Assembly (NCBI GenBank): GCA_004292595.1 | Contig: RDXM01000098.1 | Coordinates: 1-43,765 of the forward strand | Direction: 5' to 3' | Source: Candidatus Kapaibacterium sp. | Lineage (GTDB): Bacteria; Bacteroidota; Ignavibacteria; Kapaibacteriales; UBA4661 | DNA length: 43,765 nucleotides | Part shown: positions 9,598 through 43,668 of the stretch, in pieces | Layout: each line of letters begins with the position of its first letter | How positions within the stretch are numbered: position 1 is the stretch's first letter | Notes under the pieces: generated by a model | What the model was told of the DNA's origin: nothing | Seen by the model: the letters and a program-made list of their open reading frames with translations, nothing else | The model's database searches: none | Position numbers and translations under genes: made by a program

Positions 9598-9687
9598 GTG
9601 GCACGGGCATTCTTGCCCGTGTTTATCGCTTGAATACAGCACAAACACTCACAGACAAGCTGAGGGAAGCCCTCAGGTCTGTGCCAC
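9598..9687. repeat. Family-A REP-like inverted pair between pccB and ftsI
   Basis: The left unit GTGGCACGGGCATTCTTG... (9598-9621) is a hairpin with a CACGGGCA/TGCCCGTG stem. The right unit (9648-9687) runs in inverse orientation and ends GTCTGTGCCAC. Inside the right unit the usual loop is replaced by another palindrome, CTGAGGG/CCCTCAG. The whole element is bounded by GTGGCAC and GTGCCAC. Confidence 0.75.
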
Positions 9688-11974: not shown

Positions 11975-12105
11975 ACTAGTACATTGTTTAGTTAATTTTT
12001 ATAGTTTCATTTTGTTATGACGTTGCTGTACGTGTCGCAGTTGTAGTCCACCTCTGAGGTGGACTACAACTCTAGCTATAAAATTCTCTTAAACAATGTG
12101 CTAGT
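11975..12105. repeat. MITE-like element with nested palindrome (family B, variant 1)
   Basis: The outer arms ACTAGTACATTGTTTAG... (11975-12004) and ...AAACAATGTGCTAGT (12076-12105) are inverted repeats matching at 24 of 30 positions. In the centre lies a perfect palindrome, GTTGTAGTCCACCT, CTG, AGGTGGACTACAAC (12040-12070). It starts two bases after the ftsI stop codon. No coding capacity. Confidence 0.75.
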
Positions 12106-12130
12106 ACTCTATCAAATGAGTTTTAAGAAA

Positions 12131-12199
12131 AGCAGACAAGAGTGTCTGCTCTACCGAAGCCAGTATTGACGGTGGCGCAGACACTCTTGTCTGCGCCAC
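12131..12199. repeat. Two family-A-related hairpins
   Basis: AGCAGACA/TGTCTGCT (12131-12150) and the perfect 12-bp stem GTGGCGCAGACA/TGTCTGCGCCAC with loop CTCT (12172-12199). The second is a stem-conserving variant of the family-A REP unit, with GCGCAGACA in place of GCACAGACA. Confidence 0.7.
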
Positions 12200-12231
12200 G
12201 AGACGCTAAAAACTTGTTTGACGGACTACGA

Positions 12232-12323
12232 GGACTTTCGCACACCTCACAGGCAAGAATGCCTGTGCCACTACAAAACTGATAGATACTGGCTTTGGTG
12301 GCACAGACATTCCTGTCTGTGAG
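12232..12323. repeat. Family-A REP-like inverted pair downstream of sprA
   Basis: The left unit CTCACAGGCAAGAATGCC... (12246-12271) and the right unit GTGGCACAGACATTCCTG... (12298-12323) face each other. The left flank GGACTTTCGC (from 12232) and right flank CTACAAAACTGA are shared with the copy at 27107, so the repeated block spans about 50 bases there. With the neighbouring elements it fills the 446-base gap between ftsI and sprA, which holds no gene. Confidence 0.75.
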
Positions 12324-12419
12324 CTTCAAAAGCACATTGTGCAAAAGTCCTAAAGACAAAGAATAAGACGTGGTGCAATGTTCAAGCACAATATTCTGTC
12401 TGCTGCCACGCAATTTCCC

Positions 12420-20537: not shown

Positions 20538-21133
20538 TTGGTTATCGGATAGTTGAACAAAAAAGCTCTGCAATGTAACCAATAGCAATTTCAAGAAAAC
20601 TGCGACAAGAGAACCGCGAGCTGTACAACGCTGTTTTTATGGGCAGAAGTTGTATCGTATCGTTTATCAGATAAGCAAAGCCTTTGAAGAGGTGAAACAA
20701 ACAAATCACAAGCGAGGAGCAAATTTACGAGAACAAATTGTTTTTTGGAATATTTTTTTTATTACGATTCTATCTCTGCGATATTTTGCTCTGTTCGCGC
20801 TCGGCAAATCTAGCCATACTGCGGTAAAAGCGGGTGGTTTGGAATGGTCATGAGTGCATTGGTCATTGGTGGTGAGATGATAGACAGCGAGGGCGTTTCC
20901 TCTCTTGCGCTGCTGAGTTTTTGCGAAACTTTATGCTGCCTTTACCGTCATTTTTCAGGTCTCTCTGCGCATTCATGCCAGCAGAAACATGAATATACTA
21001 AAAATGGGTAAAAATTGCATATCAAAAAGTGAAGGCGTTGAGATGTAGTCCACCTCAAAGGTGGACTACATCTGCAGCAATAAACCTTTTTCAGTATAGT
21101 TCCACCATTTACACCATTTTCACAAGAAAAGCA
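20538..21133. other. Divergent intergenic region between sprA and the DUF4386 gene
   Basis: About 600 bases without a convincing gene. On the minus strand TAAATTTG (20727-20720) and TAGATTTG (20814-20807) are candidate -7 boxes for sprA, but neither has a good -33 TTG. The right third is occupied by the MITE-like element at 20994-21098. Small open frames here have no recognisable protein features. Confidence 0.5.
20994..21098. repeat. MITE-like element with nested palindrome (family B, variant 2)
   Basis: The outer arms TATACTAAAAATGGGTAAAA... (20994-21018) and GCAATAAACCTTTTTCAGTATA (21077-21098, given here as its two halves GCAATAAACC and TTTTTCAGTATA) are imperfect inverted repeats. The core palindrome AGATGTAGTCCACCT, CAA, AGGTGGACTACATCT spans 21041-21073. 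The right half recurs at 27163-27223. It ends 35 bases before the DUF4386 start codon. Confidence 0.75.
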
Positions 21134-26042: not shown

Positions 26043-27107
26043 ATGCCCGAAGCACTGGCAACTACAACTCCTTCAAGCACAGAGCGCACCAAATCTGGCT
26101 TTGTCGCAATTATCGGCGAGCCAAACGTTGGAAAATCAACCTTAATGAATGCCATTTTGGGAACAAAGCTCTCCATCGTAACGCCGAAGCCGCAAACCAC
26201 GCGCAAAAGCATCCTCGGCATCCACACCGAAGGCGCGACGCAGATTGTTTTTTTTGATACGCCCGGAGTCTTGAAGCCCAGTTATGGTCTGCATCGGAGC
26301 ATGATGGAGTTTGTCAAATCCTCAATTGAAGGTGCGGACGCGGTTTTGGTCGTGGTAGATGTTGCGAAATTGATTGAACGCGAGCAGGAACGCCAGCGCA
26401 AGCAAGCACGGCGCAAAGCGAAAACAAGCGGCACGGAAGGTAAAAAAGCAGCACAAAAAAACGCACCCACACAAAGCGGCGAACTCAGCAACGACGGGCT
26501 TCGCGGTCTGATGCTGAAACTACAAATGCGCTTGGAAACCATTGGCAAGCCCGTCATTGTCGCGCTGAATAAAATGGATGCGGTGTTCGATAAAAAACAA
26601 GCCTTGCCCGTCATGGACGCGCTGATGAAAACAGGCTTCATCACGCACGTTGCGGCGATTTCTGCGCTGGAAGATAAGTACGTGGACGAGCTGGTCAGCG
26701 TCTTGCAAGCACAAATGCCCGACCATGAATTTTACTACGACGAGGAAATGCTTTCAACGCATCCGCAACGCTTTTTTGTGGGAGAAATTCTCCGCGAAGC
26801 AGTATTTATGGGCTATCGGGAGGAGATTCCGTATTCAACGGAGGTAAACGTTGTGGAATTTAAAGAGCGAGAGCATGGGAAATGGTATATTTCGGCGGAA
26901 GTTGTTGTAGAACGCGACACGCAAAAGCAGATTATTATTGGCAAAAAAGGTGCGAGCTTGAAGGAGCTAGGAACAGTCGCACGAGCAGCAATAGAGCAGC
27001 ATTTGGAGATGCCTGTGTTTTTGGAAATTTTCGTGAAAGTGCGCGAAGATTGGCGCAATAGCGATGCGCACTTGCGCTCATTTGGCTACGGAACAAATCA
27101 ACAGTAG
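26043..27107 (+). CDS. era: Ribosome-assembly GTPase Era with a basic insertion
   Basis: The ATG at 26043 gives 354 residues; Era is usually near 300. The GTPase domain has G1 GEPNVGKST, the switch PQTTRK, G3 DTPG, G4 NKMD and G5 SAL. The C-terminal KH domain (VVERDTQKQIIIGKKGASLKE) binds the 3' end of 16S rRNA during 30S maturation. The extra length is mainly a Lys/Arg/Gln-rich segment of about 40 residues between G3 and G4 (about residues 108-148), which is absent from standard Era. It starts 35 bases after the hydrolase gene and may be co-transcribed with it. The stop codon adjoins a REP-like repeat. Confidence 0.95.
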   Translation: MPEALATTTPSSTERTKSGFVAIIGEPNVGKSTLMNAILGTKLSIVTPKPQTTRKSILGIHTEGATQIVFFDTPGVLKPSYGLHRSMMEFVKSSIEGADAVLVVVDVAKLIEREQERQRKQARRKAKTSGTEGKKAAQKNAPTQSGELSNDGLRGLMLKLQMRLETIGKPVIVALNKMDAVFDKKQALPVMDALMKTGFITHVAAISALEDKYVDELVSVLQAQMPDHEFYYDEEMLSTHPQRFFVGEILREAVFMGYREEIPYSTEVNVVEFKEREHGKWYISAEVVVERDTQKQIIIGKKGASLKELGTVARAAIEQHLEMPVFLEIFVKVREDWRNSDAHLRSFGYGTNQQ

Positions 27108-27157
27108 GACTTTCGCAAACCTCACAGGCAAGAATGCCTGTGCCACTACAAAACTGA
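27107..27157. repeat. Family-A REP-like unit beginning at the era stop codon
   Basis: The block starting GGACTTTCGCAAACCTCACA matches 12232-12282 almost base for base, including CTACAAAACTGA at its right end. Its hairpin is CACAGGCA/TGCCTGTG. The first base is the last base of the era TAG stop codon. Confidence 0.75.
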
Positions 27158-27162
27158 AGAAA

Positions 27163-27223
27163 TGAGATGTAGTCCACCTTTGAGGTGGACTACATCTAAA
27201 GCACCAAACCTTTTTTAGTATAT
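27163..27223. repeat. Partial family-B element (core palindrome and right arm)
   Basis: The perfect palindrome AGATGTAGTCCACCT, TTG, AGGTGGACTACATCT (27165-27197) is followed by ACCTTTTTTAGTATA. This matches the right half of the element at 20994-21098. The left outer arm is missing, and a family-A unit lies in its place. Confidence 0.7.
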
Positions 27224-38435: not shown

Positions 38436-38501
38436 GTGGCACAGACATTCTTGTCTGTGTATGTTGTTGAAAAGACTCACAGGCAGGAATGCCTGTGCCA
38501 C
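38436..38501. repeat. Family-A REP-like inverted pair upstream of the MFS gene
   Basis: The left unit GTGGCACAGACATTCTTG... (38436-38459) and the right unit CTCACAGGCAGGAATGCC... (38476-38501) are hairpins in opposite orientation, separated by 16 bases. The element fills most of the gap between the barrel-protein gene and the MFS start codon. Confidence 0.8.
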
Positions 38502-40644: not shown

Positions 40645-40767
40645 GGACGCAGATGAAGATGATTGCATTGATAAAGATGATAAGAGTAAGTATACCTAGA
40701 CAGTTGATATTTTCTACTTCTTTCATCATCTTCATCCATTCAATCATCTTCATCTGCGTCCAAAAAA
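40645..40767. repeat. Family-C inverted pair between convergent genes
   Basis: The left arm GGACGCAGATGAAGATGATT... (40645-40681) and the right arm ...AATCATCTTCATCTGCGTCC (ending 40761) are long inverted repeats, with a TTTTTTGGACGC end also found at 43622. The loop is about 45 bases. The right arm ends six bases before the NUDIX stop codon. The pair could act as a bidirectional terminator. Confidence 0.8.
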
Positions 40768-41508: not shown

Positions 41509-41584
41509 GTGGCACAGACATTCTTGTCTGTGAGTATTGGTGCGGGGTTCAGGCGAAGAACACAGGCAAGAATGCCTGTGCCAC
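41509..41584. repeat. Family-A REP-like inverted pair between the MCP and NUDIX genes
   Basis: The left unit GTGGCACAGACATTCTTG... (41509-41534) and the right unit CACAGGCAAGAATGCC... (41561-41584) face each other. The flanks extend the inverted repeat to AATAGTGGCAC and GTGCCACTATT. It sits about 35 bases downstream of the chemoreceptor gene. Confidence 0.8.
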
Positions 41585-43621: not shown

Positions 43622-43668
43622 TTTTTTGGACGCAGATGAAGATGATTGAATTGATAAAGATGATGAAT
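43622..43668 (+). repeat. Single family-C repeat copy
   Basis: TTTTTTGGACGCAGATGAAG and the following GATGATTGAATTGATAAAG match both arms of the element at 40645-40767. No inverted partner is present in the remaining sequence. Confidence 0.75.

Follow-up and report, generated by a model that had tools for sequence, protein, structure and literature searches.

REP hairpins of a Candidatus Kapaibacterium genome and a RAYT transposase nested in frame in its only recG

The hairpins repeated along a 43,765-nucleotide stretch of Candidatus Kapaibacterium sp. (the window; the whole of contig C51) form a REP family, the main unit of which is a 76-bp inverted pair (REPIN). It is likely that these REPs are mobilised by a RAYT transposase nested within the recG gene of the same genome and that the REPIN is the main mobile form; some REPs ride in MITEs. 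REPs, REPINs and RAYTs are known (PMC6006769, PMC3733652, PMC8049555), whereas RAYTs nested in sole-copy housekeeping genes appear to be new. A full-text search of the open-access literature returned no report of a RAYT nested in recG, alaS or methylases; a report elsewhere is possible. The genome is a 4.6-Mb draft of 199 contigs, 96.5% complete.

A sequence-only reading of the window had listed hairpins at several places, and both their positions and the quoted stems were borne out. The hairpin unit is 5' GTGG-CACAGACA-TTCY-TGTCTGTG, and the family was recognised by consensus scans, with a 20-mer genome-wide and a 24-mer in a 772-kb sample that includes the window. The pattern CRCRGRCA-N4-TGYCYGYG has 548 matches in the genome and the reversed pattern none, which is far more than chance would give, so the copies are genome-wide (548–550, about 550 in total) and not confined to the window. 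In the sample, 118 copies were found at up to 5 mismatches to the 24-mer, whereas the reversed consensus gave none even with as many as 6 allowed. Immediately before the stem, on its 5' side, stands a tag, missed by the sequence-only reading, which is GTGG in 105 and GTAG in 9 of the 118 copies (GT[AG]G together in 114/118), and GTGG is mostly unpaired in the single hairpin. Such a tag at the hairpin foot is how REPs are described in the literature (PMC6006769); here it is combined with a short hairpin, high copy number, mostly extragenic position and pairing of inverted REPs. The tag, the inverted pairs, about 550 copies and the REP-bracketed RAYT described below together make the REP/BIME-like, RAYT-linked identity proposed from sequence the right one. 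An Rfam scan across the window gave no match at gathering thresholds.

The hairpin had been described as one shape. It is indeed common to all the listed places, but three architectures stand behind it: REPIN pairs, a TA-flanked 119-bp MITE and a second MITE-like element. In the commonest arrangement, two REPs with tags outward start 48 nt apart and occupy 76 bp overall, and such a pair, as single-stranded DNA, forms a single long hairpin (folding z −5 to −6), in the manner of REPINs. The REPIN at 9598–9687 (plus strand) consists of a REP (+) at 9598–9621, with the stem CACGGGCA/TGCCCGTG and two paired changes, and a partner REP (−) at 9650–9687, whose loop is replaced by a 17-nt hairpin. This hairpin, CTGAGGGAAGCCCTCAG, replaces the loop in three REPINs (window 9650–9687, L041:11316 and L053:1179), apparently as one variant. 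The REPIN at 38436–38501 is 66 bp long, with a REP (+) at 38436–38459 and a REP (−) with a paired change at 38478–38501; the one at 41509–41584 has the usual 76 bp, with a REP (+) at 41509–41532 and a REP (−), again with a paired change, at 41561–41584.

The central place of the window is built differently. At 12232–12350 lies a 119-bp MITE with the terminal inverted repeat (TIR) GGACTTTCGCA and inward REPs at 12248–12271 (−) and 12298–12321 (+), flanked by GA/TA; TA/TA flanks were found in 7/8 copies of this element and a length of 119 bp in 8/8. One end of the same MITE is present as a fragment at 27106–27157, with a REP (−) at 27123–27146. The second MITE-like element, at about 12104–12229, carries hairpins at 12131–12150 and 12172–12199 and, as a comparison of three copies indicates, has the TIR GTAGTCCRTCAAA where intact. 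In both MITE types, inward-facing REPs surround a common spacer, AAGCCAGTAT. Three of the listed places (9598, 38436 and 41509) are REPINs, and 12232–12350 and 27106–27157 are MITE parts. The 119-bp element has the TIRs, fixed length, TA target-site flanks and lack of coding capacity of TA-flanked MITEs (Tc1/mariner-IS630-like by their flanks), and differs from them in carrying inward-facing REPs. A second palindrome family, AGATGTAGTCCACCT-loop-AGGTGGACTACATCT with a 15-bp stem, was observed at 12039–12071, 21041–21073 and 27165–27197. At its GTAGTCC end it is similar to the TIR of the element at 12104–12229, and one copy adjoins the fragment at 27106–27157. The window also contains a 37-nt direct repeat, 97% identical, at 40645–40681 and 43628–43664, about 3 kb apart.

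Because the central place and 27107–27157 are MITE parts with TA flanks, the copies at 12104–12350 and 27106–27157 were probably moved by another, DDE-type transposase, and for them the earlier suggestion of movement by a RAYT probably does not apply. It could be proposed that the hairpins in general were moved as MITEs by a TA-specific DDE transposase and not by a RAYT, since the 119-bp element has its TIRs and TA flanks and a second element shares its design. This is, however, an unlikely account of the family. It is the best reading for the two regions named, but most clusters are REPINs that do not carry these TIRs, and the RAYT itself is flanked by REPs alone.

A genome-wide search with PF01797 gave two matches. 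The first, on contig C19, is a short, truncated fragment with stops, which reads as an IS200-like TnpA and was rejected as a RAYT. The second is a RAYT, the sole one detected in the 96.5%-complete draft, and it lies in frame inside a 1060-aa recG frame, between helicase motif II (DEQHRFG) and motif III (SATPIPRT). The sequence-only reading had advised looking for a RAYT gene flanked by the same units; it was found, inside a recG that this reading could not see. This recG is the only one in the genome, the other helicase matches scoring lower and lying in other frames, and the RAYT is single-copy, although within a host frame and not as a stand-alone gene. It has the Y1_Tnp fold with HUH and the catalytic Tyr, its profile aligns along the whole domain with E. 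coli TnpA_REP (4er8) at 8.8e-10, a better match than the IS200 transposases give, and its motifs fit those of RAYT subclass 2.7, i.e., DHVH, WQ and YIxxNP (PMC6006769). Consensus-identical REPs are located at −114, −57 and +445 from the RAYT with their tags outward (REPtron arrangement), so this part of the earlier proposal, a RAYT bracketed by the same REPs, stands. None of the six frames of the REP contains a stop, and in frame the copies beside the RAYT give VAQTFLSV and QTRMSVP. Widespread in-frame placement of REPs within the ORFs of this genome was considered and rejected: the sole firm in-gene REPs of the 772-kb sample are those beside the RAYT, and the many in-frame copies within ORFs that mark Rickettsia-type palindromic elements were not found in that sample.

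The same recG loop holds a RAYT in three genomes of the family, G000 (this genome) and its congeners G004 and G007, and in all three it is bracketed by its own inverted REPs. The three RAYTs are 47–53% identical, although the C-terminal parts of their RecG hosts are 83–92% identical; in one comparison, RAYTs of 53% identity sit in hosts of 92.5% identity. The RAYTs are under purifying selection (pS 0.71–0.84, pN 0.31–0.34). The RecG of G006, which has no RAYT, shares 98.6% identity with that of G004. This, together with the divergence of the RAYTs, indicates that the loop gains, loses or exchanges them, and the RAYT now present, judged by that divergence, need not have spread all copies. The sister species G003 lacks the RAYT; in its recG (L200:1397–3931), this loop is occupied by a different insert (..PTLLPEGEG..SPSGRGLGEG..) resembling a translated repeat, and insertions of various kinds thus seem to be tolerated there. 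In G072 (L174), recG is uninterrupted, and a stand-alone RAYT was observed immediately downstream of it on that strand. The number of REPs is 550 in G000, 240 in G007 and 82 in G004, while five genomes without the recG-nested RAYT have 0–2; the link between this RAYT and the REPs is supported in that family genomes with no or almost no REPs also do not have it. However, G003 (654 REPs) and G006 (178 REPs) do not have such a RAYT either, so its presence does not simply track copy number, and loss after spread, or another source, is needed for them. As the present genome is a draft, 96.5% complete, another RAYT could be missing from it.

Nesting of RAYTs extends to other bacteria. Named genomes were scanned with the RAYT alignment and the best 80 loci were kept, which are the nearest relatives and not an unbiased sample. 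Among these, 40/80 RAYTs lie within a frame that exceeds 330 aa and extends for 80 aa or more beyond the RAYT on one side. A recognisable host protein shares the frame in 37 of the 80; Pfam identified 33 of these hosts, and motifs a further 4, all RecG. The hosts are AlaRS, ThrRS, IleRS, RecG, PriA, PurH, MetH, GcvP, RarA/MgsA and RdgB/Ham1, as well as MmeI, Eco57I, type ISP and DUF1156 methylases, an SNF2 protein and archease. Further cases of a RAYT in a methylase occur within the window's own class: at L202–L209, RAYTs were observed in frame in large DNA methylases (PglX/Eco57I-like, DUF1156), often flanked on each side by short repeated peptides resembling translated REPs. In a tree that rests on few columns and has many unresolved forks, 21 of the 22 RAYTs of a verrucomicrobial clade are nested, and the tree as a whole requires no fewer than 15 switches between the nested and the stand-alone state. 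The verrucomicrobial RAYTs enter RecG between motifs I and II, unlike the motif II–III site found here, so RecG was entered independently. The RAYT-bearing alaS is the only alaS in 8/8 genomes tested, with the RAYT near model position 373–380; weak additional AlaRS matches in these genomes fall in the domain common to ThrRS. In the AlaRS and ThrRS sets, the identities of host and RAYT co-vary, which suggests long co-inheritance.

Structures were predicted for the verrucomicrobial RecG::RAYT and for AlaRS::RAYT. The alignments were shallow and the overall confidence low (pLDDT 47 and 67, pTM 0.27 and 0.34), and interpretation was therefore confined to the RAYT block and its linkers. In both models, the RAYT is a well-predicted block (about 60–90) between linkers mostly below 40, and Foldseek matched the models to their hosts (1gm5; AlaRS structures) and to TnpA_REP 4er8. 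No protein-splicing domain was found by Pfam in the nested proteins scanned. The arrangement is similar to that of inteins, where a nuclease-type element is nested in frame in sole-copy housekeeping genes; however, with no splicing domain by Pfam, the RAYT seems to stay as a domain.

The mechanism favoured here assumes that RecG::RAYT is made as one working protein. A REPIN exposed as a single strand would fold into its long hairpin, and the RAYT, an HUH single-strand endonuclease, would cut at the tag, so copying REPINs; RecG::RAYT would in this way have cut and copied the REPs of the window. Some REPs ride in the two MITE families, probably moved by another transposase, and nesting in a sole-copy gene would protect the RAYT from deletion or loss. 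A benefit of nesting specific to RecG is possible and is not needed, because the other hosts are unrelated enzymes. Alternatively, the nested RAYT might now serve RecG as a host function and have ceased to mobilise REPs. The purifying selection, the intactness of the catalytic motifs and the fact that RecG was entered twice independently, each time at another site, are in agreement with this. We nevertheless regard it as rather improbable, since the range of unrelated hosts, a 98.6%-identical RecG that does without a RAYT and the consensus REPs flanking the RAYT all speak against it.

The hairpins had also been read from the sequence as maintained through compensatory stem changes and as possible stabilisers of mRNA 3' ends. 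The REPIN/other class has 9 cells changed on both sides yet paired, against 0.75 expected by permutation, and the MITE class has 12 against 3.9, so covariation is present. Two of the 9 REPIN/other cells are MITE fragments, which leaves 7 cells at six places, and the class also contains 8 wobble and 11 broken cells. The paired changes of MITEs are mostly one inherited A-T to G-C change. Independent paired changes are therefore real, but the effect is smaller than was first thought, and the argument from compensation is weakened because part of it reflects shared descent of one MITE lineage. Paired change also proves no role as RNA, because the stem is at the same time a DNA palindrome acted on as a single strand. 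As for position, a simple gene caller applied to the sample placed 45 of 69 clusters between tandem genes, 8 between convergent and 6 between divergent genes, 6 at edges and 4 within genes; two of these four are in recG and the other two near predicted gene starts. The median distance from a REP to a gene 3' end is 59 bp, and a role at mRNA 3' ends would fit this position. If the hairpins were retained chiefly for their action in RNA, as 3'-end stabilisers or terminators, with mobility secondary, then their closeness to 3' ends, the rarity of divergent placement (6 of 59 classed) and the paired stem changes would be expected. This proposal is slightly less probable still than the two already discussed: the GTGG tag is kept though mostly unpaired, genomes of one genus have either 0–2 or several hundred copies, and selection against gene disruption would give intergenic placement too.

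That the recG::RAYT frame arose by misassembly, or belongs to an insertion in decay, can hardly be entertained, for although the genomes are drafts and the G007 gene is split over two contigs, these contigs overlap at their ends, a single frame and all catalytic motifs are kept in three species with diverged RAYTs, pS is far above pN, and the same nesting recurs in many unrelated assemblies.

The system described here resembles the known REP/REPIN/BIME systems with RAYT (TnpA_REP) in its GTRG tag, short hairpin, inverted pairs, hundreds of copies, mostly intergenic placement and single REP-bracketed RAYT with HUH and Tyr motifs, and it differs in that the RAYT has no gene of its own and lies in frame inside the only recG. 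REPs within coding genes, repair genes included, were already known (PMC3733652), and like these and the Rickettsia palindromic elements, in-frame palindromes are found here in protein loops, including those of repair proteins and tRNA synthetases; however, those elements encode tens of residues, whereas here a whole transposase domain is nested. The survey of RAYTs left out unusually long proteins, taking them for fusions or annotation errors (PMC6006769), and surveys of this kind would miss nested RAYTs. Some annotated synthetases and helicases are in fact chimeras with a nuclease domain. RAYTs are single-copy and vertically inherited, and models of their persistence must assume a benefit to the host (PMC8049555). 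Nesting in a sole recG or alaS, as well as in other housekeeping genes from several phyla, offers a concrete and testable route by which RAYTs and REPINs may be retained. We give an even chance to the proposal that the RAYTs of this clade persist as in-frame domains of sole-copy essential proteins, where the host works around the insert, imprecise loss is lethal and expression is assured. If this proposal is correct, then it would account for the long survival of a single-copy transposase that makes no further copies of itself while its REPs spread.
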